DNA from: Pseudoselenomonas ruminantium
GTDB taxonomy: Bacteria; Bacillota; Negativicutes; Selenomonadales; Selenomonadaceae
DNA length: 64,000 nucleotides
Assembly (NCBI RefSeq): GCF_900104055.1
Contig: NZ_FNJQ01000007.1
Coordinates: 1 to 64,000 of the forward strand
Direction: 5' to 3'
The notes under the pieces were generated by a model. The model worked only from the letters and a program-made list of their open reading frames with translations. It had not been told where the DNA came from and made no database searches. Of this stretch, positions 6,664-26,536 are shown piece after piece; position 1 is the first letter of the stretch; every line of letters starts with the position of its first letter. Position numbers and translations under genes: made by a program.

Positions 6664-6996
6664 ATGGCAAGTGAAGTCATACAAAAGGAAACAAGATTGG
6701 CTAACGGCTGGCTGGCGTGGAGTATTGAAGGCCGTATCGATGTTGCGACCTCGGATTCGATTTACCAAAGCGGTGAGGAAATTGTCAATCGGGAAGCGAA
6801 GACCGTTATGGATATGAGCCGTGTGGATTATATTTCCAGTGCCGGGCTGCGTGTGCTCCTGCGCTTGCTGAAGAAAGCAAAGAAGGAGGGCAAGGAGTTC
6901 ACGGTGGTGGGGGCCACTGGACCCGTGAAGATGGTCTTGGTCGATAGCAATATGGACACGCTGCTGAATCTGCGTGAATCCCTGGATGATTTATGA
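6664..6996 (+). CDS. STAS-domain anti-sigma factor antagonist (RsbV/SpoIIAA-like)
   Basis: A 110-residue single STAS domain. The motif VMDMSRVDYISSAGLRVLL (about residues 43-61) holds the serine that anti-sigma kinases phosphorylate in this family. ATG 6664 is chosen because GGGGAGG (6649-6655) precedes it; an upstream in-frame ATG at 6619 lacks one. It is the first gene of a run that continues into the PP2C phosphatase 46 bases downstream, which would dephosphorylate and activate it. The cognate kinase (RsbW-like) is not in the window. Confidence 0.9.
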   Translation: MASEVIQKETRLANGWLAWSIEGRIDVATSDSIYQSGEEIVNREAKTVMDMSRVDYISSAGLRVLLRLLKKAKKEGKEFTVVGATGPVKMVLVDSNMDTLLNLRESLDDL

Positions 6997-7042
6997 GGGA
7001 CGCAGCTCGTGAGGCCGGCAAGAAGGAAGTGGGAGAGGAAAA

Positions 7043-9760
7043 ATGACCATACAACGGAAAATCCTGCTTCTGGTGATTGGGACAGGAATCATCTATTTCC
7101 TGATTTTGGGGGCATTATCCTTTATGGGGATGCTGCAGGCGGAAAACGATGCCATCGAAAAAGGGAATGAAATGGGCGTGACCGTCGGCAAGTTTTCCGA
7201 GGATTATGCGGTACGTGCAACCAATGAGCAGCTCTTTTCGCGGGCACAGGAAACTGCGCTCCGGATGGAACAGAAATTCAATTTTGTTTTGGATGATGCC
7301 AAAAACATCGCCAAAATGGCAGAAAAATTTCTGAACAACCGGGAAAGCTATTTGCCGAAATACTTGGATGAGCCCACAGATCCATACCTTTTTGCCCATA
7401 AGGCATATATCTATTATAATCCCGGCGTGCGTGAACGGCTGGCGGCAGAGCCTGCCCTGCAAGAAAGATTTGCGCTGCTTTCCAATATAAGGGATACCAT
7501 TGAATTCTTATCCAATTTTTATCCCAGCGGCTCGGTGTGCTATCTGGCAGCGGAAGATGGCTGCTTCATACGTGCGGATGGCCTGTCCGCAGGACAGGAA
7601 ATGGTCGTCTGTGACCAGCCAATCCTGGAACGCCGTTATGATTTCAAGGCGCGGCCCTGGTATATCAAGGGGAAGCAGGCTGGAAAACCTGTAGTTTCGG
7701 ATTTATATGGCTCTATGAACGGTTCCTCGGAGATAAGCTGTGTCGCTCCCTACTATGAGAACGGGAATTTTGCTGGGGTGGCGGGCATAACGATAACCCT
7801 GGATGCCTTGCATGAATTCGTGCACAATCGAGAAGCGGATGACAAGGACATCAATTTTGTATTGGATAAAGAAGGACAGGTGATTATGTCCTCCCAGCGG
7901 AATGGGATGTTATCCGTTTCGAATAAACCACTGGATCTGCGTCAGACGGCGGAGGCGGATCTGGCTCAGGCTGCTGTGGAAATGACGGCAGGAAAGAGTG
8001 GGACGGCCCTGGTTACCGTGGATGGTGAGAAATTTTATCTTGCCTATGTGCCAATCCCGAGCATGGGGTGGAGTTTTGGCACCCTTACGGAACAAGAAGC
8101 GGTAGTGGCCCCGGTCCGTGACATAAAAGCTACCGTAGACCAAAGCAGTGCGGAATTCGCAGCTGCCATGTCGAAGCTTTTCCGGCAGAATATCCTGCGC
8201 ATGGGCGCCCTGTTGCTGGTCATTTTCGGCTTGCTGGTCCTGCTCAGCAGCAAGGCCGCGCAGAAATTCGTGCAGCCCATCCTGGCCCTGACAGAAGGGG
8301 TCCGGGAAATCGCCAAGGGAAATCTGGACAAGCACATTGAAGTCAGGACCGGCGATGAGATTGAAGAACTGGCCGATACCGTCAACAGCATGTCCAGGGA
8401 TCTCAAAACCTACATAGAGAATCTGGCCAGATCTGCTGCGGAAAAGGAACGTCTGGCTGCCAGCATGGCATTGGCGGAGCGAGATCGTTTCGTCAACAAG
8501 CTGCTGAAGTATTCCATGTCCGGCGAGAACCCTGATAAAGTTTTGAAACAAATGATGGAATATCTGGGCCATGAACTGGAGGCTGAACGGACCTACATCT
8601 TTGAGGAACTCAGGGACCACCATTTTGCTAATACTTACGAATGGTGCGACGAAGATATAACATCGGAAATCGATAATCTGCAGCATCTTCCCTATGAGGG
8701 GGTTGTGGATGTATGGTATGAGGAGTATCAGAAAAGTGGTTGTGTCATCATCTATGATTTGGAGGAATACCGCTGTATCAGCGAGGGCATGTATCAGGTG
8801 CTGAAACCGCAGGGCATCCACTCACTGGTCACGGCTCCTTTGGCTATCGATGGCAAGTATATCGGCTTTTTTGGCGTGGATAATCCGCCACCGGAGAAAA
8901 TCAAGGCCATTGCCGAAACCTTGAAGCTGATGGCCTATTTCATTTCGACCATCGTACGGCAGAAGCAGCATCTGGCGCAGGAAGCCGAACGCATCGAAAA
9001 GGAACTGGACGGTGCCAGAAAGATCCAGGCCAGCATGCTGCCCAATATTTTTCCCGCCTATCCTGAACGCGGGGAGATCGACCTTTACGCAGCCATGTAT
9101 CCGGCCAGGGAGGTGGGCGGCGATTTCTATGATTTCTATCTGCTGGATAATCGCCATCTGGCCGTCACGATTGCGGATGTGTCCGGCAAGGGGGTGCCTG
9201 CGTCCTTGTTCATGGTCATTTCCAAGACGATCCTCAAGAACGAGGCGCTGGTGGCCATGGGGGAGGCAGCAGGCGCAGAGACTGACTGGAGCCAGGTCAT
9301 GGAGCGGGCTAACCGCAAGCTTTGCGAAAATAACGATGAACTGATGTTCGTGACGGTGTTCTTTGGGGTGTTGGATATGGACACGGGCGAGTTCATCTAT
9401 GTGAATGGCGGACACAATCCTCCCCTTTGGTGCCATGATGGGAAATTTGCTTATCTGCGCATGGAAAAGAAAAGCAATATGCTCGGTGTCATAGAGGAGG
9501 AACGCTATCATGCGTATCGTCTGACCCTGGTTCCGGGAGACAAGATATTTCTCTATACGGACGGTGTGACGGAGGCGATGGATGCTTCCGGGGCAATGTA
9601 CTCAGAAGGGCGCTTGCTGGAACGGCTGAATGCCTGCTGTGAGAGCAGTGTGCAGAAAATACTGGCTGGCGTGAAGGCGGATGTGAGCAGCTTTGCCGGC
9701 GATGCGGAGCAATCCGATGACATCACCATGCTGGCCCTTGCCTATAGAGGCCGGGCTTGA
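7043..9760 (+). CDS. Cache-HAMP-GAF sensor with PP2C (SpoIIE-type) phosphatase
   Basis: A 905-residue membrane sensor phosphatase. In order: membrane helix 7-29, extracytoplasmic double-Cache-like sensor to about 375, second helix about 385-410, HAMP linker (ILALTEGVREIAKGNLDKH), GAF-like domain about 480-640, a helical linker, then a PP2C/SpoIIE domain. That domain has the metal-binding motifs VGGDFYDFY, ADVSGKGVPASLFM, GGHNPPL, DGVTEAMD and DDITML, all of which appear intact. It should dephosphorylate the STAS partner encoded just upstream when an external ligand is sensed. It lies in the same run as the peptide exporter genes, which suggests control of that system. Confidence 0.9.
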   Translation: MTIQRKILLLVIGTGIIYFLILGALSFMGMLQAENDAIEKGNEMGVTVGKFSEDYAVRATNEQLFSRAQETALRMEQKFNFVLDDAKNIAKMAEKFLNNRESYLPKYLDEPTDPYLFAHKAYIYYNPGVRERLAAEPALQERFALLSNIRDTIEFLSNFYPSGSVCYLAAEDGCFIRADGLSAGQEMVVCDQPILERRYDFKARPWYIKGKQAGKPVVSDLYGSMNGSSEISCVAPYYENGNFAGVAGITITLDALHEFVHNREADDKDINFVLDKEGQVIMSSQRNGMLSVSNKPLDLRQTAEADLAQAAVEMTAGKSGTALVTVDGEKFYLAYVPIPSMGWSFGTLTEQEAVVAPVRDIKATVDQSSAEFAAAMSKLFRQNILRMGALLLVIFGLLVLLSSKAAQKFVQPILALTEGVREIAKGNLDKHIEVRTGDEIEELADTVNSMSRDLKTYIENLARSAAEKERLAASMALAERDRFVNKLLKYSMSGENPDKVLKQMMEYLGHELEAERTYIFEELRDHHFANTYEWCDEDITSEIDNLQHLPYEGVVDVWYEEYQKSGCVIIYDLEEYRCISEGMYQVLKPQGIHSLVTAPLAIDGKYIGFFGVDNPPPEKIKAIAETLKLMAYFISTIVRQKQHLAQEAERIEKELDGARKIQASMLPNIFPAYPERGEIDLYAAMYPAREVGGDFYDFYLLDNRHLAVTIADVSGKGVPASLFMVISKTILKNEALVAMGEAAGAETDWSQVMERANRKLCENNDELMFVTVFFGVLDMDTGEFIYVNGGHNPPLWCHDGKFAYLRMEKKSNMLGVIEEERYHAYRLTLVPGDKIFLYTDGVTEAMDASGAMYSEGRLLERLNACCESSVQKILAGVKADVSSFAGDAEQSDDITMLALAYRGRA

Positions 9761-9824: not shown

Positions 9825-10985
9825 ATGAGAAAATATTTTTTTGTGGGCCTGGCATTGGTACTGGTCCTGGCTTTGATGGTCATTGCCTATGGTGCTTATC
9901 TGAATGATCGCGGGGAGAGCCAGATAACTTTGCGCATGGAGGAGCGGCGGGTAGAACTGGTAGGTGTGAAGGCTGACCGGAGGGAACTGCATCCGCTGAT
10001 AAAGTTCTCGGCAGTCAATCTCTATGCGAACCGTGTGGCGGATGCTGTGGCCCTGACGGAAGGGCGGATCATAGAGGCTTATGCCGCTGTCAATGGGTAC
10101 GTTCACAAGGGAGACCTGCTGTTCCGGCTGGAAAATGATAATATTGCCCTGTCCATCCAGGAAGCGGAAGCAGGAATCCTGAGCGCTGAAGCAGAACTGG
10201 CTCGCGCTACCAATAACTTTGACCGTTACAGCAAGCTGCGGATGGCAGAGGCCGCCTCCCCGCAGCAGTATGACGAAGCCAAGGCTGCCTATGTAGCAGC
10301 GCAGGGGAAGCTCAAGGCAGCGGTGGCCAAGCGGGATATGCTGCTGGTGAACAAGGCGCGCTGTGAGGTTCGTTCCCCTATCGACGGTACCGTGCGCATC
10401 ATCTACCGGCAGCCAGGAACCTATGTGCCCAGCGGGACATCCCTGGCCCTTATCGGCAATTACAATGAGATGTATTTTTCACATCAGGTCAGCGATAACA
10501 GGGTGCAGAGATTGCAGCAAGGGCAGGAGGCGGAATTTGTCTTCCCCGGCAAGGAGTTCAAGAACTTGGAGAATATGGCCGGGGAGAGTGCCCCGGATCA
10601 GGTCTTTCATGCGGTATTGATGGAGATATCCCCGCCGCTTTCCGAGCCGGGAGCCGCCCGCACCCTGCTATGGAAGCTGGACAATCCTTTGGGGCTGCTC
10701 ACGCCCCAGACCTATGGCACTGCCTATCTGAGGCTGGGCGTCCGGGCCGATGCCCTCTGCGTGCCGCTCTCGGCCATGACCGATAAGACACGCCAGGCGG
10801 TCTTTGTCTATCGCGATGGTCAGCTGGAAAGAAAAGCAGTTACAACCGGCAGGGATGATGGGGAGTATATTGAGGTTTTGAGCGGTCTGGAACCGGGGGA
10901 AATCGTCATCATCTCCGGCACAGATCATTTACAGGATGGCATGAAGGCCAATGTGACGCTTAGGGGGGAGCAGGATGGCAGATAA
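9825..10985 (+). CDS. RND/MacA-type membrane fusion protein
   Basis: A 386-residue periplasmic adaptor: signal/anchor helix (YFFVGLALVLVLALMVIAYGAYL), lipoyl half (EGRIIEAYAAVNGYVHKGDLLF), helical hairpin about 110-180, second lipoyl half (EVRSPIDGTVRIIYRQPGTYV) and beta-barrel with membrane-proximal domain to the end. ATG 9825 follows AGGAGGGG; a longer upstream frame overlaps the PP2C gene and is rejected. It ends 11 bases inside the next gene, the NHLP-type secretion protein, indicating coupling. A second adaptor in a peptide-export operon is unusual and may help cross two membranes. Confidence 0.85.
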   Translation: MRKYFFVGLALVLVLALMVIAYGAYLNDRGESQITLRMEERRVELVGVKADRRELHPLIKFSAVNLYANRVADAVALTEGRIIEAYAAVNGYVHKGDLLFRLENDNIALSIQEAEAGILSAEAELARATNNFDRYSKLRMAEAASPQQYDEAKAAYVAAQGKLKAAVAKRDMLLVNKARCEVRSPIDGTVRIIYRQPGTYVPSGTSLALIGNYNEMYFSHQVSDNRVQRLQQGQEAEFVFPGKEFKNLENMAGESAPDQVFHAVLMEISPPLSEPGAARTLLWKLDNPLGLLTPQTYGTAYLRLGVRADALCVPLSAMTDKTRQAVFVYRDGQLERKAVTTGRDDGEYIEVLSGLEPGEIVIISGTDHLQDGMKANVTLRGEQDGR

Positions 10986-11952
10986 GGGAAAAAGCCAGAA
11001 CGTGGGAAGTTTTTTCAATCAGGAAGCCATTGACAAGCTGCGTTCCCCGGAAAAACTGGATACCATGGTGCGCATTACAGGCCCCATGGGCTGGATGGGA
11101 CTGGCAGCTGTCTGCATCCTGTGTTTCTCCGTTGTCCTCTGGTCCATTTATGGTTCTTTTACGGAAAAGGCAGAGGGCATGGGACTCATCATGGATGTAT
11201 CCGGGGTGAGAAATGTTTCCCATGCGGCTACCGGGCGGATTACGGATATCTATGTGAAGACTGGCAGCCAGGTGCATGCAGGGCAGCTTATCGCCCATAT
11301 GGAACATCCCGAGCAATCGGCAGATACCCGCATGGCTCAGTATGGCACGGGGCTGGCAGCAAATGACCGGGACGTGCAGTCCAAGATCTATCAATACGAT
11401 GCCAAACGGCAGCAGCAGACGGCCAAAGAGGATATCTACTGCGAGTATGATGGTATCGTGGATGAGGTGATGGCGTCAGAAGGGCAGATCCTGCAGGCAG
11501 GGGTTCCGCTCTGTACCGTGCGTCTGACAGAGGAGCGCAAGGACCTTTCGGGGGTGCTATACATTCCCGTGGACAAGGGCAAGCGGGTGGTACCGGGGAT
11601 GACCATCCAGCTGGCGCCTAACGGTGTGGATGTGAGCCAGACCGGCAGCCTTTTGGGAATCGTGGAAAGTGTTTCCCAATATCCCATGTCTGCCGCCGGC
11701 ATCGAAAAGGGATTGGGCAATGCACAGCTGGCCCAGTATGTGCTTTCCAAAGACGGCGGGGCCGCCGTGGAGGTGCGGTTCAGCCTCGTAAAGGATGCTT
11801 CTTCGGCTTCCGGCTATCTCTGGACTTCTGTGGTGGGTAAGCACGCGCCCATCACGCCGGGGAGTTATTGTACGGGAGCGGTGGTCATTGAGCGACAGAT
11901 GCCCATCGAGAAGGTTTTTTACAAGATCAGCCAGTGGTTGAGGAGCAGGTAA
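10975..11952 (+). CDS. NHLP bacteriocin-system secretion protein (HlyD-like)
   Basis: This 325-residue protein matches the HlyD-like component of NHLP/NHLM peptide export systems. The N-terminal FFNQEAIDKLRSPEKLDTMVRIT segment is characteristic, followed by one membrane helix (about 39-60), a short lipoyl-like half (AATGRITDIYVKTGSQVHAGQ), a brief coiled coil and the second half (EYDGIVDEVMASEGQILQAG). It would bridge the ABC exporter encoded next to the outer envelope. It overlaps the preceding adaptor gene by 11 bases and is 37 bases ahead of the C39 peptidase transporter. Confidence 0.93.
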   Translation: MADKGKSQNVGSFFNQEAIDKLRSPEKLDTMVRITGPMGWMGLAAVCILCFSVVLWSIYGSFTEKAEGMGLIMDVSGVRNVSHAATGRITDIYVKTGSQVHAGQLIAHMEHPEQSADTRMAQYGTGLAANDRDVQSKIYQYDAKRQQQTAKEDIYCEYDGIVDEVMASEGQILQAGVPLCTVRLTEERKDLSGVLYIPVDKGKRVVPGMTIQLAPNGVDVSQTGSLLGIVESVSQYPMSAAGIEKGLGNAQLAQYVLSKDGGAAVEVRFSLVKDASSASGYLWTSVVGKHAPITPGSYCTGAVVIERQMPIEKVFYKISQWLRSR

Positions 11953-11989
11953 GCTATGCCAAAGTGACAGCGGCGGAATGGAGTTTGAT

Positions 11990-14224
11990 ATGGGGATGAA
12001 GACCTGGGAAGCATTAAGCAAGCTGAAAAACAAATATTTCCCTGAAACCCGCCGGGTAAAGACACCCACTGTGCTGCAGATGGAGGCTGTGGAGTGTGGG
12101 GCAGCGTCTCTGGCCATGGTGCTGGCCTATCATGGCAAGTGGCTGCCTTTGGAACGGCTGCGTCAGGAGTGCGGGGTTACCCGTGACGGCAGCAACGCAG
12201 CCAATATCATCAAGGCGGCCCGCAGGCTGGGCTGCGAGGCCCAGGGCCGGGCGGGGCGTCCTCAGGCACTGTTCAAACAGGACTTTCCCCTGATCCTTTT
12301 TTGGGAATTCAATCATTTTGTGGTCATGGAGGGCTTCCGGGGAAATACAGTCTTTCTGAATGATCCGGCTATGGGCAGGCGCAGCATGGAATGGCAGGAA
12401 TTCCTGTCTTCCTATACGGGCGTTTACCTGAAGATCGTCCCCGGCCCCGAATTCAGACGGGAGGGGCGGCCCTATAGCATTGTCAGGGCTGTGTCCGCCA
12501 AGCTCATGCAGGACAAGTGGGCGGTGCTGTTCCTTTTGCTGCTGGGGCTCTGCATGGTGTTGCCGGGCCTGGCAGAACCTGTCTTCAGCCAGATCTTTTT
12601 TGACGATATCTTTTCTATGAAGCATCCGGACTGGACGCAGTATTTGCTGCTGGCCATGGGCGGGACCATCATCATGAATGGCATTATGACCGCTATGCGC
12701 TGTTCGACCCTGCTGTCCTGGCAGAAAAAACTGACGCTGGTGGACTCTTCCGCCTTTTTTTGGCATGTGCTCAGGCTGCCCATTACGTTTTTCCAGCAAC
12801 GCTTTGCCGGAGAGATTGCCTCCCGCATCCAGTTCAATGAGAGCAATGCCGATGTGCTCTCGGATCAGGCGGCAACCTCCCTGTTGGATTGTCTGATTGC
12901 TCTTTTCTATCTGGCGTTGCTGCTGTCCTATAGTGTGCCTCTGACCTTGGTCGGCATATTCATCAGTGTGGTGAATGTCTTTGTTTTTTTCTACATGCGA
13001 CGCCATATGACGGATATCATGATGCATATGCAGCAGGAAAAGGGCAAGGAATATGGCACGCTCATGGCGGGGCTGATGATGATTGAGAGCATCAAGGCCA
13101 GTGGCACGGAAGGGGACTTCTTTGCCAAGTGGGCCGGGTATCAGGCCAAAGGGCTGATGGCCATGCAGAAGATGCAGCTTTGGGCACTGAAGTTAAAGCT
13201 GCTGCCCACCCTGCTGTCGGGACTCACCAGTGCGATGATCATGGCCGTGGGTGGCTTTTCCGTCATGGAAGGGGTCATGACCGCCGGCATGTATACCGCC
13301 GTCTCCGGTCTTCTGCCCAAGTTTCAGGAGCCCATGAACAAGCTGCTGGCTTTCGGCAATCTCCTGCAGAATATGGAAATGCAGATGCGCCGGCTGGATG
13401 ATGTCTGGCGCTATGGGATTGACCGCTTGAACTATCCGGAAACGCCGCTCCAGGCTAAGGACGGCAAATTCCGTCTGACCGGCCAGCTGGAACTGAAGGA
13501 TCTGAGCTTTGGCTACAATCTCCTGGAACCGCCGCTTTTGGAGCATTTTGACCTGACGCTGGCGCCCGGGCAGTGGGCGGCGGTAGTCGGTTCCTCCGGC
13601 AGCGGCAAATCCACCCTGGCCAAGGTCGTAGCGGGACTCTACGAGGAATGGTCGGGGGATATCCTGCTGGACGGACAAAAGCGTCGCGACATCCCCCGGG
13701 AGGTTATTGTCAGCTCGGTGGCCATCGTCGATCAGGATGTGTTCCAGATGACGGGAACTGTGGCCGAGAATATCTCTTTTTTTGATAAATCCCTGCCGAA
13801 GGAAGATATCATCCGGGCGGCGCAGGATGCCTGTATCCATGAGGATATCCTGAAACTGCCCGGAGGTTATGAGGCCCAGGTGGCCGAAGGCGGCATGAAT
13901 TTTTCGGGCGGTCAGCGGCAGAGACTGGAAATCGCCCGTGCTCTGGCCGGCAATCCCTCCCTGTTGATCCTGGATGAGGCTACCAGTGCCATTGATCCCC
14001 TGACGGAGCAGGTCATCCTGAAAAATATCCGCCGCAGGGGCTGTGTCTGCCTGTTGGTGGCCCATCGCCTTTCGACCATTCGCGAAGCAGACGAGATCAT
14101 TGTCCTGGAGTGCGGAAAAATCGTGCAGCGGGGCAGCCATCGGGAGCTTATCGGCAAGGATGGCCCTTACCGCCGTCTGGTAGAAGAGCGGGAAACGGAA
14201 GAGGATGCAGATGTTCTGGACTAG
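11990..14224 (+). CDS. NHLM-type peptide ABC transporter with C39 leader peptidase
   Basis: A 744-residue peptidase-containing ABC transporter. An N-terminal C39 domain (about 1-135) has catalytic Cys36 in MEAVECGAASLAMVL, His109 in EFNHFVV and Asp124 in LNDPAMG. The membrane domain spans about 155-440, and the ATPase has Walker A GSSGSGKSTLAK, signature FSGGQRQRLEIA and Walker B LLILDEATSAID. It should cut after the Gly-Gly of the leaders at 18691 and 20813 and export the cores. ATG 11990 is preferred because GGAG is 6 bases upstream; an in-frame ATG at 11978 lacks a ribosome site. Confidence 0.93.
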   Translation: MGMKTWEALSKLKNKYFPETRRVKTPTVLQMEAVECGAASLAMVLAYHGKWLPLERLRQECGVTRDGSNAANIIKAARRLGCEAQGRAGRPQALFKQDFPLILFWEFNHFVVMEGFRGNTVFLNDPAMGRRSMEWQEFLSSYTGVYLKIVPGPEFRREGRPYSIVRAVSAKLMQDKWAVLFLLLLGLCMVLPGLAEPVFSQIFFDDIFSMKHPDWTQYLLLAMGGTIIMNGIMTAMRCSTLLSWQKKLTLVDSSAFFWHVLRLPITFFQQRFAGEIASRIQFNESNADVLSDQAATSLLDCLIALFYLALLLSYSVPLTLVGIFISVVNVFVFFYMRRHMTDIMMHMQQEKGKEYGTLMAGLMMIESIKASGTEGDFFAKWAGYQAKGLMAMQKMQLWALKLKLLPTLLSGLTSAMIMAVGGFSVMEGVMTAGMYTAVSGLLPKFQEPMNKLLAFGNLLQNMEMQMRRLDDVWRYGIDRLNYPETPLQAKDGKFRLTGQLELKDLSFGYNLLEPPLLEHFDLTLAPGQWAAVVGSSGSGKSTLAKVVAGLYEEWSGDILLDGQKRRDIPREVIVSSVAIVDQDVFQMTGTVAENISFFDKSLPKEDIIRAAQDACIHEDILKLPGGYEAQVAEGGMNFSGGQRQRLEIARALAGNPSLLILDEATSAIDPLTEQVILKNIRRRGCVCLLVAHRLSTIREADEIIVLECGKIVQRGSHRELIGKDGPYRRLVEERETEEDADVLD

Positions 14225-14235
14225 GAGTGAAGGAT

Positions 14236-18690: not shown

Positions 18691-18909
18691 ATGTCAAATG
18701 AGTTCACCAAGGAACAGATTGAGAAGGCTTTGGCCTGCCAGACTGTGGAAGAGCTGTTAGAGGCAGCAAAATCTGAGGGCATCGAGATCAGCCAGGAGGA
18801 GGCTGAAGCCTTCATGGCTGAGAAGGAAGACCGGGAACTGGATGAGGAGACACTTATGCAGGTGGCAGGTGGCAAAAAAGACTCCCGTTGCCTGTTTATC
18901 GGCTATTGA
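18691..18909 (+). CDS. Nif11-like precursor peptide 1 (11-residue core, one Cys)
   Basis: A 72-residue RiPP precursor. The helical leader has KALACQTVEELLEAAKSEG and EEAEAFMAEK, then LDEETLMQ and the cleavage motif VAGG (residues 58-61). The predicted core after Gly61 is KKDSRCLFIGY, one of the shortest expected for this leader class. ATG 18691 is chosen because AGGAGG (18677-18682) precedes it; an in-frame ATG at 18673 lacks a site. The leader signature A-C-x-T-x-E-(x)n-A-K-x-x-G-(I/V)-E is shared with the second precursor. It lies between maturase copy 1 and the pseudo-radical-SAM gene. Confidence 0.88.
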   Translation: MSNEFTKEQIEKALACQTVEELLEAAKSEGIEISQEEAEAFMAEKEDRELDEETLMQVAGGKKDSRCLFIGY

Positions 18910-18944: not shown

Positions 18945-20738
18945 ATGGAAAGACAGGAACTTACGGTCGCGGAATACCTGGCACATCTTCGCCGCCATCC
19001 CTTGCCGGCAATCCTTTCAACGGAGTGCCTGGCGGCAATGTCGAATATCGAAAAGCAGTATGGGAAAATGCCTGCTGAACTGACGGGGCTGGAAGTAAGG
19101 CTTACCGAAGCGGTGCGGCATGTGGATTACATCCTGAAAATCAATGATACAAATATCCCCGCCGTGGAAGAACTCTGGTATGAGCTGGACTATGAGGAAT
19201 TTGCCAAAGGCGGCAGCCTGGAGCCCTGTCTGTTTGCCAATACCAGCCACTTCTTTGCGGATGGCGGCAAGCAGGAGGTGCTTTGGGAACAGATGCTGCC
19301 AGCCTTCCTCGGGAAGCGGCGGGCCGAAAAACTTCGCCAGCCCCTTGAGCAGGTGATGGCAGCATTGCCTGAGGGCGCCTATATCAAACAGATGGGCACG
19401 ATGAATAGTCGCGGCGAGCTTGACATCATGCGTCTGGTCATCTGGTTCCCCTCGTGGGAAAGTGTTTTCCCCGGGGTAAAGGCGTTGGGCTGGCCGGGGG
19501 ATCGTGAAGCCCTGCAAGCTGCGCTTCAGCCCTGGCAGGATATGGAAGGAATCGCCATCAATCTGGATTTAGGGGAACAGGGCATTTTGCCCAAAATCGG
19601 CGTCGAATTATTCTTCTCCTGGCGTCATCCTCTGCTGGTGGATAAGCTGATTGCCTGGCTGGAGGCGGTAAAGCTTTGCCTGCCGGAAAAAGGCCAGGCT
19701 CTGCGGCAGTGGATCCGGATTCGTCCGGATGGCAATCCGGTGATTCAGCCCTCCATCGTGTATTTCAAATTGAATTACAAAGCGGGAAAGATCACAGGAG
19801 CCAAAGCGTATTTAGCGCAGACGCCCTGTCTGCTGCATCATTATTTTGATGCTTATGATCGTCCTGTTTACGCACAGATACAACTGCAAGACCAAACGAA
19901 CACCCTGCCTGCAGGCGAGGCGCTTAGATGGCTTGAGGAATGCGCAGACAATCGGGTGCGCAAGGTGCAATTCATAGGAAGCCGTACCTATGAACCGCTG
20001 GGCAGGCTCCTGGCGGCATGCAGGGCGCTGGGGATTGAAGCAGAAGTATTGCTTACAGGAGAAGAAAACAGAACCTGGCTGGAAAAAAACATCCGGGCAG
20101 GAGTCGCAGCCTTCCTGATTGAAGCAGATACCGTGGAGACATGGTTGCCAACCGTGAAAATCCTGCGGGAATTGCAATTCCCGGATGTGCGGGTAAGGTG
20201 GCGTATGGCCCCGGAAATGGCAGACCGTCTGCAGGAAATCAGCCATCTTTTTGCTGAGGATGTTGGCGTAAAAGAGCTTATCCTGACGGGCATGCGGCCA
20301 GGTGCAGATGGTGTTTTCAGCCATAGGGAGTTGGCGAAAATTGCCGCTTTCCTGTGGGAATATAAAAAGCAAGCCACAGCGGGAAGGGACGGCAAAGAAC
20401 AGATGCAGATCACGGTGGATCCATGCTTTTCGGCACTCCGTGCCGTTTTAGGCGGCAGGGATTCCACGAAAAACGGCAATCGCGGCATTGCGCGGGGCTG
20501 CGGTGCAGGCCGGGACCATTTCTGTGTGAATGCCGGCGGCAGGCTTACCCCCTGTGCATATCTGGATCTTGATGGGGAAGAGGCCTCTTTGGCTGAATAC
20601 TGGGAAAGCGCAGATCGCTTGCAGGACCTTCGCACCCGTGATGCACAGCATGCCCGCCCTTCCTGCGCAGGCTGTGCCTATGAACGGCGCTGTCTGCCCT
20701 GCCCGGTTGTGGCCGGGAAATGTTACCTGCCGGTTTGA
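18945..20738 (+). CDS. unknown domain fused to a radical-SAM-like pseudoenzyme with SPASM domain
   Basis: A 597-residue protein, family not recognised. Residues ~55-295 resemble the stand-alone protein at 21193: matching blocks such as LDLGEQGILPKIGVELFF vs FDLYPDGTLGDNLGVALSF, and a C-terminal AKAYLAQ. Residues ~305-500 look like a radical SAM barrel (PVYAQIQLQDQTN, then LPAGEALRWLEE and VRKVQFIGSR). The CxxxCxxC loop after strand 1 is gone and the GGE position reads GSR. The SPASM part is intact in cysteines: C519, C527, C537, C574, C577, C583, C586, C593. It probably cannot bind the SAM cluster but may hold auxiliary clusters or present the precursor. ATG 18945 follows GGAGG; the upstream frame is not used. 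Confidence 0.75.
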   Translation: MERQELTVAEYLAHLRRHPLPAILSTECLAAMSNIEKQYGKMPAELTGLEVRLTEAVRHVDYILKINDTNIPAVEELWYELDYEEFAKGGSLEPCLFANTSHFFADGGKQEVLWEQMLPAFLGKRRAEKLRQPLEQVMAALPEGAYIKQMGTMNSRGELDIMRLVIWFPSWESVFPGVKALGWPGDREALQAALQPWQDMEGIAINLDLGEQGILPKIGVELFFSWRHPLLVDKLIAWLEAVKLCLPEKGQALRQWIRIRPDGNPVIQPSIVYFKLNYKAGKITGAKAYLAQTPCLLHHYFDAYDRPVYAQIQLQDQTNTLPAGEALRWLEECADNRVRKVQFIGSRTYEPLGRLLAACRALGIEAEVLLTGEENRTWLEKNIRAGVAAFLIEADTVETWLPTVKILRELQFPDVRVRWRMAPEMADRLQEISHLFAEDVGVKELILTGMRPGADGVFSHRELAKIAAFLWEYKKQATAGRDGKEQMQITVDPCFSALRAVLGGRDSTKNGNRGIARGCGAGRDHFCVNAGGRLTPCAYLDLDGEEASLAEYWESADRLQDLRTRDAQHARPSCAGCAYERRCLPCPVVAGKCYLPV

Positions 20739-20812: not shown

Positions 20813-21058
20813 ATGGAAAGCAAGATCGATCCGAAACTCATGACCAAGGAAATGCTGGCTAAGGCTATGGCCTGTGAGACGCCGGAAGCCATCAGCGCGC
20901 TGGCAAAGGAAAATGGTGTCGAATTGACCGCAGAAGAGGCCAAGAAGCTTTTCGACAATCTGGAAAATTTTGATGTGAATCTCTCCGATGAAGCTATGGA
21001 AAAAGTGGCCGGCGGCGAATTGTGCTGGGAAGTCTGCCATAGCCCCTCCACGTATTGA
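20813..21058 (+). CDS. Nif11-like precursor peptide 2 (13-residue core, CxxxC)
   Basis: An 81-residue RiPP precursor. Its leader carries KAMACETPEAISALAKENG and EEAKKLFDNL, then LSDEAMEK and VAGG (residues 65-68). The predicted core is ELCWEVCHSPSTY, with Cys71 and Cys75 flanking W-E-V, plus His and an aromatic C-terminus. AAGGAGG lies 7-8 bases before the ATG. It shares the leader signature with precursor 1 but its core is unrelated. A strong hairpin terminator (21125-21165) follows, so most transcripts may stop after it, giving excess precursor over the downstream enzymes. Confidence 0.9.
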   Translation: MESKIDPKLMTKEMLAKAMACETPEAISALAKENGVELTAEEAKKLFDNLENFDVNLSDEAMEKVAGGELCWEVCHSPSTY

Positions 21059-21124: not shown

Positions 21125-21165
21125 AATGGTAAATCCTTTTGGCTATCCCAAAGGGATTTACCATT
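21125..21165 (+). terminator. intrinsic terminator/attenuator after precursor 2
   Basis: AATGGTAAATCC (21125-21136) pairs with GGATTTACCATT (21154-21165), with an inner TTTGG/CCAAA stem, and is followed by TTCTTTAT. It lies within the cluster between the precursor and maturation genes, as expected for a partial terminator. Confidence 0.85.
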
Positions 21166-21192
21166 TTCTTTATCCATCAGGAGGGCAGGATT

Positions 21193-22233
21193 ATGGACAG
21201 GATGGATGCCAGAGAAGCTTTTGAACGTCTTTATGCAAGGGTGGCCGCTGAGGGACGCGAGGAGATGCTGTTTGGCAAGGAGACTTATGAAAAGGCCGTC
21301 AAAGTGTTGGATAAATATGCGGTTGCCAATGCAGGCAAGGGCATATTTGAGTTTGAATTTCCCTTTACCGGGCAGCCGCGCATGGATTTGCTGGCAGGAT
21401 ATGAATGCCGCAACCTGTGTGCTCCGGTGAATTTTGTGGGAGAGGTAAATCCGCTTATCCAAAATTTCTTTGATGCATTTGCCCGGGAACCGTCTTTTGC
21501 AGATTATGTCTATGGCTATTCCTTTGACCTTTCTGCCGGAGCGTCAGAAGACACCATGCCCGGGCTCTATCTGCTGCCACCTTTAGGCCGGCCGACGGAA
21601 GCTTATGTGCCGATCCTGCTGAAAACTCTGGGCGGGGAGGCGTTCATTCCCAAGGTAATGAATGCTTTTGCTGAAGCGCCTTTTAGATGGCAGCCGCATT
21701 ACGCGGGTTATATGGCAGGGCGCCCTGGCGCACCCACCCGCTTAGGATTTTCCATCAAGAAAGCAGACTGCCTGTATTATGCGGAAAAACGAGAAGCGCT
21801 TCTGCTGGATATCGAAACCTATATGGGCCGGGAATTTTCCCCGGAAGGCCGGGAGCTTTTACGCTTTTTGGCCGCAGGAGGCTGGATATACGATCTGCAG
21901 TTTGACCTTTATCCCGATGGAACGCTGGGGGATAATCTGGGGGTAGCGCTTAGTTTTGACAGCAACGATGTAGACCCGCGCAAGGCTGCCGGATTTTTGG
22001 AACGAGGGGCTGCCGGAGAAAAGCTGCGTTATCTGGAACACATCGGGCTGGCGGATTCCCGTTGGCGGCAGATGGATCGTGCCTGCTATGGTGTGCAGCA
22101 CATCGTGCACAGCGAAGGCAAACGAAGGTTGGCAGGAGATGTGGTGAAATTGGATGGCATCAAGGTGCGTTTCAAAAAGGGGAACGCCTATTTGGCCAAG
22201 GGATATCTTTTGGCGCAGTCCTATTATCTATGA
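21193..22233 (+). CDS. unrecognised peptide-cluster protein, stand-alone copy of the fused domain
   Basis: A 346-residue soluble protein without signal peptide. I do not recognise its family. It shows repeated alpha-beta-beta units (FEFEFPFTGQPRMDLL; TRLGFSIKKADCLYYAEK; YDLQFDLYPDGTLGDNLGVALSF; GIKVRFKKGNAYLAKGYLLAQ) and resembles residues ~55-295 of the 597-residue protein at 18945. ATG 21193 follows AGGAGGGC; an in-frame ATG inside the terminator at 21139 is rejected. Its position between precursor 2 and maturase 2 mirrors the fused copy beside precursor 1, so a role in precursor binding or tailoring is inferred. Confidence 0.7.
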   Translation: MDRMDAREAFERLYARVAAEGREEMLFGKETYEKAVKVLDKYAVANAGKGIFEFEFPFTGQPRMDLLAGYECRNLCAPVNFVGEVNPLIQNFFDAFAREPSFADYVYGYSFDLSAGASEDTMPGLYLLPPLGRPTEAYVPILLKTLGGEAFIPKVMNAFAEAPFRWQPHYAGYMAGRPGAPTRLGFSIKKADCLYYAEKREALLLDIETYMGREFSPEGRELLRFLAAGGWIYDLQFDLYPDGTLGDNLGVALSFDSNDVDPRKAAGFLERGAAGEKLRYLEHIGLADSRWRQMDRACYGVQHIVHSEGKRRLAGDVVKLDGIKVRFKKGNAYLAKGYLLAQSYYL

Positions 22234-22256
22234 ATTGGCAGGGGAGGCGGCATGAT

Positions 22257-23801
22257 TTGCGCGTAAGTACCTATGAAATCATTTTACCTTTGATTGACCG
22301 GAATGGCAGCGAGAGTCAGGAACATGCGCTGCTGGCCAATGGAATTTATGGTGCCTTTGATGTAATACCGAAGGAGGCAGCAAGCAAGATCGCCGCCGGC
22401 GATATCGCAGCGTTAGCGCCAGCCTTGCAGGAACGGCTTCTGCGGCGCGGACATATAACCAATAAGGACGCGGCAGCGGAGCGCGACGACGCCTTGCTGA
22501 TTGCCCGCCTTAGCGCCAAGCTGGTAACCGATCCGCGCATCGTTCTCTTTGTCATGCCAACCTATGACTGCAATTTTCGCTGTCCCTATTGTTTTGAAAG
22601 GAAACGCCTGCGGCATGGTCCGGAATGGCTGTCTAAGACCATGGCGCCTGAGATGGTCGAGGCCATTTTTCAGGCCGTGGAACATGAGCGGAAACGGGGC
22701 CGTCATATCGAAAGCTGCACCCTCTTTGGCGGCGAGCCCTTCCTCAAAGAGAATTTCGCCGCCGTGCAGAAAATCTGCCAGCGGGCGGGAGCACTCGGGA
22801 TTCCGCTGAATGCGATTACCAATGGCTATGAGATAGATTGTTTTCGGGAACTGCTGGAACAATATCCCTTCCGGAATTTGAAAATAGCCGTAGATGGGAC
22901 AGGGGCCGCACATGACCGGCATCGCCGCCATAAAGATGGCCTTCCTACCTATGCACGCATCATGGATAATATCGCACTAGCCCTGTCAAAAGGCGTAGAT
23001 GTTACATTGCGCATAAACATCAATCGGGAAAATGTCGGTGAGATCAAGAAACTGCCGGAAGACTTGGCCGCACGGGGGCTCATGGAGCCGGGAAAAGATG
23101 CGAAGGGCTGGGGAACGTTTGAATACAGTTTCAAGGCGGTGGAAGAAGCGGATACCTTACCCACGCATATGAGTGAAGGCGAAGTCTTGCAGGCCATCAT
23201 CGCAGCGGATCCGGTAAAAGATGAGTTGCAGGCATTGGAACACGAGAGCCTGTATGTGAATGCGGCGGTGGGCTTGCGCCGGGCGATGACGAAAAAGCAG
23301 CTGCCCTATCTTACGGCCGGCCATTGCAATGCCGTGAAAGGCAAGGCCATCATCGATCCCTATGGTGAGATCTTCCCCTGTGCCTATCTTCTCGACGATG
23401 CCAGGGAAGGCATTGGTTATGTGGATGAGGCAGAGGGGCGCTTCCTGTATAATTTCCGCAAGGCCAAGTGGGATGCTCGTACCGGGGATATTCTAAAACC
23501 CTGCCAAAGCTGTCCTTATATCTTCTTCTGTGGCGGCGGTTGTGCCATGAAGGCCAAGAAGGCAGAGGGAAATCCTTTCCGGCATCATTGTGGCAATATC
23601 CGGGAGATTTGGGATTATACAGCCGCCCGCGTAGCAGCAGATGAATGGGCAAAGCGGGGAAATGAAGAACTGACCCTTTCTTATGCCGAGCCTTTGTCTC
23701 GTTTGAGTGCATCCCAGCAGGAGAGACTGTGCACGACCAACAGCAGGAAAGAAATCTTTGCCACGCTATTGGCGCTGGGATTTTTTGAGGGAAAAACATA
23801 A
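22257..23801 (+). CDS. radical SAM/SPASM peptide maturase, copy 2
   Basis: A 514-residue paralogue of the gene at 17076. The core begins PTYDCNFRCPYCFE (Cys105, 109, 112), with SAM motif FGGEPFL, and the SPASM cysteines lie in HCNAVKG, IFPCAY, CQSCPYIFFCGGGC and HHC near the C-terminus. A TTG start at 22257 is chosen because GGGGAGG (22241-22247) is 9 bases upstream and the protein then aligns from residue 1 with copy 1; an overlapping ATG (22252) opens only a 4-codon frame. It is 23 bases after the stand-alone domain gene. By position it should act on precursor 2 (ELCWEVC core). Confidence 0.93.
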   Translation: MRVSTYEIILPLIDRNGSESQEHALLANGIYGAFDVIPKEAASKIAAGDIAALAPALQERLLRRGHITNKDAAAERDDALLIARLSAKLVTDPRIVLFVMPTYDCNFRCPYCFERKRLRHGPEWLSKTMAPEMVEAIFQAVEHERKRGRHIESCTLFGGEPFLKENFAAVQKICQRAGALGIPLNAITNGYEIDCFRELLEQYPFRNLKIAVDGTGAAHDRHRRHKDGLPTYARIMDNIALALSKGVDVTLRININRENVGEIKKLPEDLAARGLMEPGKDAKGWGTFEYSFKAVEEADTLPTHMSEGEVLQAIIAADPVKDELQALEHESLYVNAAVGLRRAMTKKQLPYLTAGHCNAVKGKAIIDPYGEIFPCAYLLDDAREGIGYVDEAEGRFLYNFRKAKWDARTGDILKPCQSCPYIFFCGGGCAMKAKKAEGNPFRHHCGNIREIWDYTAARVAADEWAKRGNEELTLSYAEPLSRLSASQQERLCTTNSRKEIFATLLALGFFEGKT

Positions 23802-23813: not shown

Positions 23814-25121
23814 ATGCTGAAATATTCACGCTACAATCACTTAGTAAGAATTCCCGACGAGGAGGCCTTTGCCCTGGTGAATTTCCGTACGGGTGCAGTT
23901 GCGCGCCTGTCCCCCGTGCAAAAGATTGTTTTTGAGCAGGCTGAGGACCTGCCGGTCTCAGCTAAGGCCATCCAAAAACTCCGGCAGGGAGGTTTCCTGG
24001 TCGATTATGATGAGTTGCGGCATATGCGCACGCAGATATTTTCTGCTGGTGGCACTGGCCGGGCGCTGGGGTTGACCATCTGTCCGACGCTGGCCTGCAA
24101 TTTCCGCTGTCCCTACTGTTTTGAACAGGCCAGGGGCGGGCGTATGACCCCGGAGGTGCAGGATGCCATCGTGGCTTTTGCGCAGGAAAATATGGAAAAA
24201 TTTGCCTTGCATCGTTTGACGGTTACCTGGTTCGGTGGTGAGCCGCTGCTTTGCCCGGATATCATCGAAAATCTTTCGGTCCGGCTTATGGGAATCTGCC
24301 AAAAGCTAGGGGCAAGCTATGCAGCCGGTATTTTCACCAATGGCTGGTTCCTCACAGAGGAGAACCTGGCGCTGTTGGAACGGGCGAAAGTGACCACCAT
24401 ACAGATGACACTGGATGGGGCCACGCCTGAGACGAACGATCATCTGCGCCGTGAGGCAGGGGGCGGCTCCAGCTTTGCCCGCATCATGGAGAATATAAAA
24501 AAACTGCGTCCTTATGCGGAAGATAAAGCTCCCCATGTCATCATCCGCTACAACATGAATCGGGAGAACGCTCCGTATTTTGGAGCGCTGGCTGCCAAGA
24601 TCGAGGCTGCCGCCCGGGAAACCGGCGTGGACATCACGGCCTATCCTGCCAAGATGGATAGCAGCATAGAAAATCCCCAGCACATCCGGGATGCGGCCCT
24701 GTCTCTGGACGAATATGGCCGTCTGGCCAGTTCCAATGCTGTACTGAACATCAAAACACCGGCACATTTTCGCGGGCTTTACTGCATGGCCCAATATCCG
24801 CATGCCTATGCCATAGACGAGCTGGGGGATCTGTATAAATGTTTGGAGCTCGTAGGCCGGCAGGAGTTCGTCATGGGGAATGTGAGGAGCTTCCGTCCCT
24901 TCAAGGAGCCGGCAGAAGGCATTGAGAATATGGATCGCTTTTTTGAGACAATATTTCCGGAGCAGGATGCGGAGTGCATGGCCTGCAAGGCTTTCCCGCT
25001 CTGTCTGGGCGGCTGCCCGCGCAAACGCGTTGCAGGGGAGAGAAGCTGCCTGTCCCTGAAAAGCGATCTGGATGGTTACGCTTTGGCACGTTATCGGGAA
25101 ACAAGGAGTCAGGATAAATGA
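23814..25121 (+). CDS. radical SAM/SPASM peptide maturase, distinct type
   Basis: A 435-residue radical SAM enzyme from a different subfamily than the two paralogues. The ~85-residue N-terminus (YSRYNHLVRIPDEEAFALVNF) is typical of leader-binding heads in SPASM maturases. The core has PTLACNFRCPYCFEQ (Cys95, 99, 102) and WFGGEPLL; the SPASM part has LYCMAQ, LYKCLE, CMACKAFPLCLGGC and a late Cys. AAGGAGG precedes the ATG; the gap to maturase 2 is 12 bases. It overlaps the next radical SAM gene by 4 bases (ATGA). A second modification of one or both cores is the natural reading. Confidence 0.9.
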   Translation: MLKYSRYNHLVRIPDEEAFALVNFRTGAVARLSPVQKIVFEQAEDLPVSAKAIQKLRQGGFLVDYDELRHMRTQIFSAGGTGRALGLTICPTLACNFRCPYCFEQARGGRMTPEVQDAIVAFAQENMEKFALHRLTVTWFGGEPLLCPDIIENLSVRLMGICQKLGASYAAGIFTNGWFLTEENLALLERAKVTTIQMTLDGATPETNDHLRREAGGGSSFARIMENIKKLRPYAEDKAPHVIIRYNMNRENAPYFGALAAKIEAAARETGVDITAYPAKMDSSIENPQHIRDAALSLDEYGRLASSNAVLNIKTPAHFRGLYCMAQYPHAYAIDELGDLYKCLELVGRQEFVMGNVRSFRPFKEPAEGIENMDRFFETIFPEQDAECMACKAFPLCLGGCPRKRVAGERSCLSLKSDLDGYALARYRETRSQDK

Positions 25122-26221
25122 TACAGGAATTCAGGGATGTTGGGGACGCGCAGGAAAAAAACGCAGTCTGCCGAAAATTCTGCGATCCACAGGCAAATGC
25201 CTATATGATCTTCATGGGGAGGATGGATCGCGAAAACGGTGCTGGAAATTATATCCAAATGTGCTGCGGCGGCATCATGCATCCGCCTAAAGTGAAGTAT
25301 GGCCAAACTCCGGCAGAGACCTTCCGGAATTTTTTTGCGCTCCGGGAGCAGGTGATACGGAACTCGGTGGAACAAGAGGGCAGCGAAGATAAGAAAGGAT
25401 TTTACTGCCATGTCTGTGAGCAGTTTGTCCAGCGGGATGACCGCCCCTGGCATTGCCGTGCCGATATTTCCCTCGTCAATATCACGGTCTCGCCTGCACC
25501 CTGCCAGGGTAATTGCTTTTATTGTGATTTACGGCATGATTGGTATGTATGGCGGGATACCGCAGAGGTGCATGCCGGCTACGAGCGCTTGCTGGAGACT
25601 TTGGCATACGGCAGGAGGAAGGGGCTGATCAGTCCTGAGGCACGATGGGTGTTTGCGTCAGGGGAGATCACCATTCACCCTTACAAGACGCAGTTCTTGG
25701 AATTGCTGGCCGGCCAGTATGCTGTTTTCTGCACCAATGGCTTTTTGTATGATGAAGACCTCGCTGAGTTTATCCGGCAGAATCCCCGTGCCAGGATCAA
25801 TATCTCGCTGGATGCAGGTACGGCAGAAACCTGGAAAAAGGTCAAAGGCTTTGATAATTTTGCGCAGGTCAAGGCCAATTTGAGGCGATACAATGCTGAC
25901 AGTGCGGGCGGCAGCTCCCTGCTGGAATTGAAATACATTGTCTGTCTGGACATGAATGATAAAGAAGAGGACTATCAGGGATTTGTGGGATTTGCTAAGG
26001 AATTGGGGGTCCGTCAGATCACCTTGTCCAGAGATATGCGCTATATGTATGCCAAAGCCTATTTGCCGGGAGGCAATCGCCATTCTAAGCTTATTGCCGC
26101 TGCGGCAAGACTCCATGCCCTGTGCGTGGAAGCTGGCTTTGACATCAAATGGCTGGCCTATACCCAGGCGGATATTGCGGCCATTGAAGCATTATCCGGT
26201 CAGATATCAACAGTACGCTGA
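25118..26221 (+). CDS. radical SAM protein with Cys-rich N-terminus
   Basis: A 367-residue radical SAM protein. The cluster motif PCQGNCFYC (Cys129, 133, 136) sits after an unusual N-terminal region with extra cysteines (C18, C22, C49, C50, C97, C100, C113), which may bind another metal or Fe-S cluster. The SAM-binding GGE motif reads SGE (FASGEITIHP). It has no SPASM tail. Barrel landmarks include FCTNGFLYDEDL and INISLDAGTAETWKKVKG. It overlaps the upstream maturase by 4 bases, so the two are probably co-translated. Substrate unknown; it could modify the peptide or activate another cluster protein. Confidence 0.82.
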   Translation: MIQEFRDVGDAQEKNAVCRKFCDPQANAYMIFMGRMDRENGAGNYIQMCCGGIMHPPKVKYGQTPAETFRNFFALREQVIRNSVEQEGSEDKKGFYCHVCEQFVQRDDRPWHCRADISLVNITVSPAPCQGNCFYCDLRHDWYVWRDTAEVHAGYERLLETLAYGRRKGLISPEARWVFASGEITIHPYKTQFLELLAGQYAVFCTNGFLYDEDLAEFIRQNPRARINISLDAGTAETWKKVKGFDNFAQVKANLRRYNADSAGGSSLLELKYIVCLDMNDKEEDYQGFVGFAKELGVRQITLSRDMRYMYAKAYLPGGNRHSKLIAAAARLHALCVEAGFDIKWLAYTQADIAAIEALSGQISTVR

Positions 26222-26245
26222 GGGCATGGCAAGGGGGGATTTTTC

Positions 26246-26536
26246 TTGTATCCTGTATTAGCGAAATCCAGTGCGTTGGTAACGCAGAAGTTCCGGGAAT
26301 TTTTCTGGCCTACGGTGCTGGCGACCATGGCCCTGCAGGTGGGCACGATCCTGGACAGCATCATCGTGGGCAATCTGCTGGGACCGGATGCCATGGCGGG
26401 TGTCGGGGTATGTATGCCGCTCACACAGATCCTGGGCGCAATTTCAGGGGGTGCGCATGCTGGTGCGCTATGTAATCCCTATGAGCTGAAACAAAAAACA
26501 GCCTTGGATACAGCATATTTCCCTGAGCCGGAATAA
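26246..26536 (+). pseudogene. truncated MATE-family exporter
   Basis: The first ~68 residues (SALVTQKFREFFWPTVLATM, then GTILDSIIVGNLLGPDAMAGVG) match the start of MATE/multidrug antiporters, but after AISGG the frame diverges and ends at 96 residues; full MATE proteins are about 450. A TTG start at 26246 follows GGGGGG. It is probably a deletion remnant of an exporter at the end of the peptide cluster. No later MATE segment is seen before the terminator at 26626. Confidence 0.75.

Follow-up and report, generated by a model that had tools for sequence, protein, structure and literature searches.

The Nif11 (N11P) precursors and NHLM exporters of ribosomally synthesized and post-translationally modified peptides (RiPPs) were reportedly set out by Haft et al. 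in 2010. The available portion of PMC12715784 describes MppC of Moorena as a Nif11-leader-dependent ABBA prenyltransferase that geranylates a tryptophan of the core peptide, and it describes cyanobactin prenyltransferases as acting once the leader has been removed. As presented there, MppC is a close functional precedent, without radical S-adenosylmethionine (SAM) partners, for the locus analyzed here, which lies within the first 64,000 nucleotides (the whole stretch, termed the window) of contig NZ_FNJQ01000007.1 of Pseudoselenomonas ruminantium, a region of contig C63 in a draft genome of 3.2 Mb. The locus combines two predicted precursors (preA and preB) and four radical SAM genes (rsA to rsD) with duf and fus, whose products are modeled with an ABBA prenyltransferase fold that is free in duf and joined in fus to a degenerate radical SAM/SPASM half. 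It is read here, with moderate confidence, as a RiPP pathway that would yield two tiny exported peptides through radical SAM chemistry and prenylation.

Results

Fold of duf and of the N-terminal half of fus

Neither duf nor the N-terminal half of fus could be assigned to a Pfam or NCBIfam family, and neither gave a prenyltransferase match there at E 0.1. The AlphaFold model of duf (predicted local distance difference test score, pLDDT, 90.7) contains ten strands arranged in pairs with flanking helices, and all 22 of its Foldseek matches at E ≤0.001 are prenyltransferases, the best being CymD (2.0e-5). A second aligner superposes the duf model on CymD with Z 16.1 over 290 residues (root mean square deviation (rmsd) 4.3), and among the matches that it listed 50 of 50 are ABBA prenyltransferases. 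The fus model (pLDDT 89.3) has its ABBA fold at about residues 1-300 and its radical SAM and SPASM parts at about 303-597; residues 6-296 superpose on CymD with Z 16.2 over 264 residues (rmsd 3.8), and both duf and the N-terminal half of fus are modeled as the ten-stranded antiparallel ABBA barrel.

Alignments of 17 duf and 44 fus homologues were used to relate the two domains, which match in hhalign with E 9.3e-5 and a probability of 59%. A bridging protein, at the locus numbered L010, was retrieved by the duf profile (E 1e-44) and by that of the fus N-domain (E 2.5e-10), and the profile match, the bridging protein and the joint alignment together indicate that duf and the fus N-domain are homologous. 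Glu-51, Asp-115 and Arg-188 are present in 20 of 20 rows of the joint alignment of duf, fus and separate-gene forms, and Asp-62, Arg-194, Lys-312, Lys-324 and Tyr-326 in at least 90% of these rows. The conserved residues sit on or beside the barrel strands, and we infer that they may bind prenyl diphosphate. A scan of genome contigs with the profile of the duf alignment returned nothing useful.

Degenerate radical SAM half of fus and its history

Residues 303-596 of fus superpose on PqqE with Z 21.9 (262 residues, rmsd 3.4) and on SuiB with Z 20.6, and the fus profile retrieves both by sequence (E 2.5e-10 and 7.6e-10, respectively). The CxxxCxxC motif is gone in the window protein and in 41 of the 44 aligned fus rows, with the domain fold retained; fus was rejected as an ordinary radical SAM enzyme because this motif is missing. 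The three intact rows (L060, L061 and L067) have CPLxCPQC followed by a GGE, and the GGE is also missing in the window protein and the other 41. Six SPASM cysteines are present in all 44 rows and two more in 40 and 42 rows. A fourth intact fusion occurs at L145. At L146 the prenyltransferase and radical SAM protein are adjoining separate genes, at L147 they are separate with three frames in between (the prenyltransferase frame there having no motif of the last two strands), and L150 has a weak prenyltransferase match and a radical SAM fragment on one short contig.

A tree of 52 radical SAM halves, built by a quick method with Shimodaira-Hasegawa-like approximate likelihood ratio support only, from an alignment whose gap filter dropped the motif columns, and rooted on three stand-alone relatives chosen by hand, places the separate forms first (98) and the fused forms together (98). 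All 41 degenerate rows lie beyond a single branch (100), i.e. one loss of the motif. Mean pairwise identity after the loss (820 pairs) is 62.6% for the ABBA part, 51.6% for SPASM and 36.9% for the radical SAM barrel, against 40.8% for the ABBA part, 51.7% for the barrel and 56.6% for SPASM in the 3 intact pairs. The barrel diverges fastest after the loss, its order relative to the ABBA part being the reverse of that in the intact pairs. The dead radical SAM/SPASM half of fus is now probably a binding or scaffold domain.

UPF0489 proteins adjoin the separate-gene form at L147 (3967-4902) and L148 (8203-9147). The available text of PMC12703449 treats UPF0489 as a peptide-arginase family, so ornithine may be a further modification at these two loci.

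Precursors and predicted cores

The predicted precursors preA and preB are 41% identical, and their predicted cores, which follow a VAGG motif, have 11 and 13 residues (Table 1) and, if unmodified, calculated [M+H]+ masses of 1329.698 (preA) and 1553.640 (preB). In Selenomonas ruminantium HD4 (L039) the preA core is KKDSRCMYIGY, identical to that of the window at 9 of 11 positions, and the preB core is GDSSICWEICHSPGTY. The same genome has a decayed extra copy (L039 6085-7123) in which a piece of a precursor and the C-terminal portion of an rsA-like gene remain.

Beside the intact or separate forms of fus a C-terminal Trp is found in 18 of 18 counted distinct cores, 10 to 46 residues long, all from six genomes, some loci contributing several precursors. 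The count leaves out matches with E over 1e-4, with more than 160 amino acids or with no GG motif past residue 40, and in doing so it excludes two that go against the rule (L067 13277-13786, with a Phe end, and L148 6089-6421, of another leader type with a Lys end) and one that follows it (L060 9443-9589, with a Trp end). No precursor was found at L147, and L148 is included though its 20 kb showed no prenyltransferase gene. L136-L138, which have the radical SAM relative only, gave weak precursor-like matches, none with a Trp end.

The degenerate-fus loci gave 64 distinct cores with a median length of 17 residues (range 3 to 40), after 21 duplicate loci had been taken out by hand and with the loci that have duf and no full fus (L042, L058, L059, L062 and L063) set aside. 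Trp or Tyr is present in 63 of these cores, Cys in 58 and a terminal Trp in 5. Among 59 representatives, which share loci and are not fully independent, one has neither Trp nor Tyr compared with 11.7 expected when letters are redealt (0 of 5000 shuffles), and Trp or Tyr adjoins Cys in 33 compared with 17.0 on redealing and 19.7 on shuffling within cores (0 of 5000 each). A core of a Selenomonadaceae metagenome-assembled genome (MAG; L046), GCYPDCKNDYCFEN, recurs with one to three changes in the Lachnospiraceae loci L101, L103 and L111.

Related clusters also contain a second leader type (L059 2251-2535 and 3062-3307, L042 3556-3801, L071 5346-5627), which reads MNENVKKFLEEAEKN...VAGG in L059 and L042 and suggests, from sequence, that further peptides use the same exporter.

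Distribution and companion genes

Matches to fus that cover the N-terminal half occur in at least 22 of 300 genomes of the class, the overall tally of 141 being mostly SPASM-only matches, and duf occurs in 12 of the 300. Across 398 genomes of the phylum the sole match of the duf profile was the window's own. A scan of named genomes gave 46 loci in Selenomonas, Schwartzia, Succiniclasticum, other Selenomonadales and Acidaminococcaceae, Lachnospiraceae and Spirochaetia. Their titles name a ruminant or a ruminant gut part in 21 cases, carry RUG codes, which we take to denote rumen uncultured genomes, in 12, give rumen species names in 3 and are indeterminate in 10; a ruminant-gut source is thus indicated for at least 33. 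The fus of L104, titled Lachnospiraceae, is nearly identical to those of L069 and L078, titled Selenomonadales, so one of these MAGs may be misbinned; Lachnospiraceae are also backed by L101 and L103, which are not titled as MAGs, and Spirochaetia by MAG-type records only. A plasmid home for fus was rejected, since none of 72,556 plasmid records matched it. The Butyrivibrio fibrisolvens plasmid pNP243 from bovine rumen encodes a distant duf homologue (L160 8959-10029; 22.6% identity, 98% covered, annotated as a hypothetical protein), adjoining asparagine-synthase, PqqD and peptidase genes, a neighborhood that suggests a lasso-peptide cluster.

Among 47 distinct degenerate-fus loci, many of which come from short contigs, a precursor is present at 31, an NHLM ATP-binding cassette (ABC) gene at 25, an rsA/rsB-like gene at 24 and a B12-type radical SAM gene at 7. 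For the 18 loci with at least 6 kb on each side the respective counts are 15, 14, 11 and 4. In three intact loci the exporter is present and an rsA/rsB-like gene is absent. The B12-type protein is a radical SAM protein whose match for B12 binding is weak; it is found repeatedly in the neighborhood of degenerate fus, in many cases at loci lacking rsA (L045 331-2244; L047, L054, L090, L099, L107 and L113).

Organization of the locus

Fourteen genes lie on the + strand at 6664-26221 with intergenic distances of -11 to 134 bp (Table 1). The GAF match of the SpoIIE sensor phosphatase is under the GAF cut-off, and the start of membrane fusion protein 1 was set to the ATG at 9825, with AGGAGG 5' of it.

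Table 1. Coordinates and supporting matches of the features of the locus
Feature	Position	Strand	Evidence
STAS protein, anti-sigma-antagonist type	6664..6996	+	PF01740 56.8 bits
dCache-HAMP-(GAF)-SpoIIE sensor phosphatase	7043..9760	+	PF07228 156, PF02743 70, PF00672 47 bits
Membrane fusion protein 1, RND_mfp type	9825..10985	+	TIGR01730 187 bits (cut-off 95)
Membrane fusion protein 2, NHLM HlyD	10975..11952	+	TIGR03794 239 bits (cut-off 156)
NHLM ABC1: C39 leader peptidase, permease, ATPase	11978..14224	+	TIGR03796 966 bits (cut-off 853), PF03412 109 bits
NHLM ABC2	14227..16944	+	TIGR03797 722 bits (cut-off 709)
rsA, radical SAM/SPASM maturase, module A	17076..18614	+	PF04055 80, TIGR04085 51 bits; CNFRCPYC
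preA, Nif11-like leader, ...VAGG / predicted core KKDSRCLFIGY	18691..18909	+	TIGR03798 30.4 bits (cut-off 32.3), PF07862 15.4 bits (cut-off 23.8)
fus, predicted ABBA prenyltransferase fold + radical SAM fold without CxxxCxxC + SPASM	18945..20738	+	AlphaFold model m1a10dd298e4d
preB, Nif11-like leader, ...VAGG / predicted core ELCWEVCHSPSTY	20813..21058	+	TIGR03798 37.5 bits (cut-off 32.3), PF07862 24.2 bits (cut-off 23.8)
Hairpin then T-rich tail 3' of preB, terminator or attenuator	21125..21170	+	fold compared with shuffles
duf, free protein with predicted ABBA prenyltransferase fold, module B	21193..22233	+	AlphaFold model m85ea7328164b
rsB, radical SAM/SPASM maturase, rsA paralogue	22230..23801	+	CNFRCPYC; 43% identity to rsA
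rsC, radical SAM/SPASM protein	23814..25121	+	PF04055 65, TIGR04085 52 bits (cut-off 27)
rsD, radical SAM protein, 4-bp overlap with rsC	25118..26221	+	PF04055 40 bits

The initial annotation, made from the DNA letters, had proposed a RiPP cluster that combines precursors of Nif11-like type with several radical SAM maturases and NHLM export, a reading that the family scans support. The STAS/SpoIIE switch, the two membrane fusion proteins and the paired NHLM transporters that it listed, one with a C39 peptidase, are all present on the + strand, with TIGR03794, TIGR03796 and TIGR03797 above cut-off. Of its two Nif11-like precursors, preB passes both TIGR03798 and PF07862 and preA falls just under both cut-offs. 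Its count of two paralogous SPASM maturases and two further radical SAM proteins holds for rsA, rsB, rsC and rsD, to be amended in that rsC is a SPASM protein as well and fus is a fifth, degenerate homologue. The domain that it left unassigned does occur free and fused, in duf and fus, and is now placed in the ABBA prenyltransferase fold by the models. The gene set begins at 6664 as it had proposed; its end at 26536 takes in a 96-amino acid MATE transporter fragment (26246-26536, between rsD and the following gene), which was set aside as truncated and is, like rsD, probably not a core part; without it the gene set ends at 26221. A chance neighborhood is unlikely, and a chance grouping of the radical SAM genes was rejected, because relatives carry the same gene set.

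The rsA and rsB comparison extends across 506 aligned residues. CxxxCxxC is present in rsA, rsB, rsC and rsD, and PF04055 is above cut-off in all four. Compared with named SPASM maturase families (CefB, Clo7bot, TIGR04463, PapB and others) no cut-off is reached, the best scores being 137 of 600 bits for rsA, 108 of 525 for rsB and 192 of 525 for rsC; these best matches are to thioether- or crosslink-forming maturases, every one sub-threshold. A gene labeled rsC is found in L039, L042, L059, L071 and the window, each of which has duf. No rsD counterpart was found in the other 59 genomes searched, and on that ground rsD was rejected as a core part and is probably strain-specific. Among loci with ABC genes, membrane fusion genes are present at none of the 6 titled Lachnospiraceae and at 3 of the 4 titled Spirochaetia, a lineage pattern that fits a role in outer-membrane crossing during export.

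STAS genes occur in related clusters (e.g. L039, L040, L041, L052, L053 and L059), several of which also have SpoIIE genes, and in L041 an HATPase_c_2 gene lies between the two. In the window STAS and SpoIIE are not separated by a kinase gene, and the nearest strong HATPase_c_2 match on this contig is about 60 kb distant, by another SpoIIE. A second partner-switch group, with a weak STAS match, HATPase_c_2 and SpoIIE, is located at L144 6135-12755 (about 66-73 kb of C63), its SpoIIE being 50% identical in the phosphatase part, and a 584-amino acid frame that starts like a MATE protein and has an HATPase_c_2 match (L144 11004-12755) is found elsewhere on this contig, beyond the window. The hairpin 3' of preB has 21 pairs and a T-rich end, and the fold of 21056-21192 has z -5.06, with 0 of 200 shuffles as stable. 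In L039 and L071, two loci that hardly differ from each other, a hairpin of another sequence occupies this position (z -3.5 each).

Elsewhere in the window two long frames overlap on opposite strands, 1478-4105 (+, 875 amino acids) and 1547-4141 (-, 864 amino acids), only one of which can be the main gene. A histidine biosynthesis operon downstream of the cluster (27078-34015) was recognized by eye from the sequences.

Discussion

The genes are consistent with two modules on a shared exporter, a putative module A of preA, rsA and fus and a putative module B of preB, duf, rsB and rsC. In either module the leader would deliver the precursor to a radical SAM enzyme (rsA in module A, rsB and rsC in module B), which would alter or cross-link the core, likely at Cys and aromatic residues. 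The ABBA enzyme, fus or duf, would then add an isoprenoid to an aromatic residue, Trp or Tyr, and the C39 domain would cleave after GG for the peptide to be exported; the step order, the modified residue and the prenyl donor are as we infer them. The STAS/SpoIIE pair may make expression responsive to an external signal, and the hairpin 3' of preB may keep precursor mRNA above enzyme mRNA.

Several observations weigh against this pathway. An ABBA fold seen in models is by itself no proof of activity, and no sequence search (family scans, PDB profile) ties duf to a known prenyltransferase; PDB sequence searches with duf and with a separate-gene prenyltransferase returned nothing at E 10. The missing match does not exclude duf from the ABBA fold family. 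Among the 18 flanked degenerate loci an rsA/rsB-like gene is absent from 7, and 5 of the 18 lack both this gene and a B12-type radical SAM gene. In the 59 representative cores the lack of Cys is not significantly rare (6 compared with 9.2 expected, p 0.11), nor is an aromatic residue within two positions of Cys enriched over within-core shuffles (p 0.26), and the pattern of Trp or Tyr with Cys could be explained as well by radical SAM cross-linking with no prenylation. A general search for promoters and terminators gave no excess (8 promoter-like sites compared with 14.2 in shuffles, 18 terminator-like sites compared with 19.7) and did not pick out the preB hairpin.

That cross-linking alone might suffice leads to a plain radical SAM RiPP with thioether or carbon-carbon cross-links, in which the ABBA proteins, no longer prenyltransferases, are peptide-binding chaperones, comparable with a RiPP recognition element, for the radical SAM enzymes. 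The sub-threshold best matches of rsA, rsB and rsC to thioether- and crosslink-forming maturases agree with it, Trp or Tyr adjoining Cys would suit a cross-link, and the family scans of cluster proteins recognized no prenyl-donor gene in 6664-26221. Against it, prenyl diphosphates are products of general metabolism. The Glu, Asp, Arg, Lys and Tyr residues of the barrel strands show little or no variation among 20 diverse rows, and within degenerate fus no part is better conserved than the ABBA domain; such conservation exceeds the needs of a binding scaffold and makes the chaperone role rather improbable. Still further from the data is the idea that fus is a recent pseudogene-like remnant without a role: its radical SAM motif is missing, but the 47 distinct degenerate loci have full-length frames that retain the SPASM cysteines and an ABBA part averaging 63% identity across lineages, so that this is very improbable indeed. 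A lanthipeptide or cyanobactin pathway was rejected, family scans having found no such family among the cluster proteins.

The function of the peptides is a separate matter. The tiny, hypervariable cores, the STAS and SpoIIE genes that adjoin several clusters and the HATPase_c_2 gene between them in L041 would be in keeping with extracellular pheromones sensed by the dCache phosphatase that controls the cluster, and ComX of Bacillus is a prenylated pheromone. Such a role is unlikely given the preA core, nearly identical in two species, which is not needed for a self-recognition signal, and the window, with its STAS and SpoIIE genes uninterrupted by a kinase gene. Narrow-spectrum bacteriocins acting between rumen bacteria come close to an even prospect. 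NHLM export, several different precursors per locus and near-identical cores across lineages, such as that of the Selenomonadaceae MAG and its close variants in Lachnospiraceae isolates, speak for them; no immunity gene was recognized, which speaks against.

Taking the preferred pathway of radical SAM chemistry and prenylation further, the locus may represent a new RiPP class in which an ABBA prenyltransferase is partnered with, and was formerly fused to, a radical SAM/SPASM enzyme, together with a history specific to a rumen branch; this joint proposal is plausible and is put forward tentatively, short of being probable. An ancestral form would have acted on Nif11-led peptides with a C-terminal Trp. 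The fused radical SAM half would then have lost its cluster once and become an iron-sulfur scaffold for substrate handling, with separate radical SAM partners of the rsA and B12 types taking over. The cores would thereby have been freed to become tiny and hypervariable, giving a peptide vocabulary common to rumen Negativicutes, Clostridia and Spirochaetia.

On the preferred reading an unassigned domain becomes a testable, predicted family of peptide prenyltransferases outside Pfam and NCBIfam, and its history gives a rare dated series from separate to fused to degenerate forms showing how RiPP enzymes may swap partners. If prenylation is true, the enzymes might serve at the bench to lipidate peptides 3 to 40 residues long under the guidance of a leader. 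The products form a candidate family of rumen peptides; the available text of PMC8241843 reports from rumen surveys that expressed Selenomonas 'sactipeptide' clusters vary with feed efficiency.

Comparison with known systems

The initial annotation had taken the combination to be apparently undescribed, and no printed account of this cluster, or of an ABBA prenyltransferase joined to a radical SAM/SPASM enzyme by fusion or by pairing, was found in the open-access literature, a scope in which subscription journals are mostly not represented. The available portions of PMC12703449, PMC4289311, PMC11002830, PMC13289728 and PMC8241843 contain no such fusion or cluster, and that of PMC12715784 describes no fusion to a radical SAM/SPASM protein. 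RiPPs are known, as are Nif11 leaders, NHLM export and peptide prenylation taken singly; the combination and the fused degenerate enzyme appear new, on what is weak evidence of absence.

The fold of the C-terminal half of fus is like that of PqqE and SuiB, unlike which fus has no SAM-cluster motif. The CefB, Clo7bot and TIGR04463 families are the best matches of rsA-rsC, yet at 100-190 bits where 525-600 are required. As in the NHLM/Nif11 (N11P) systems, preB fits TIGR03798 and the exporter fits its three models, whereas preA is just below the cut-off, the cores have only 11 and 13 residues and the maturases lie outside the named families. The cyanobactin enzymes PagF and LimF, both in the duf Foldseek list, are likewise ABBA fold enzymes that act on peptides, but no search relates them to duf by sequence and no cyanobactin protease genes were recognized in the cluster. 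The prenylated lanthipeptide system of MppC and MppE of Moorena, in the available text of PMC12715784, shares with the locus a Nif11-like leader, an ABBA prenyltransferase (here by fold only), a short core and an aromatic acceptor (here a predicted one). There the ring is formed by a class II lanthionine synthetase; here none was matched among the cluster proteins scanned, and the locus has radical SAM enzymes instead.

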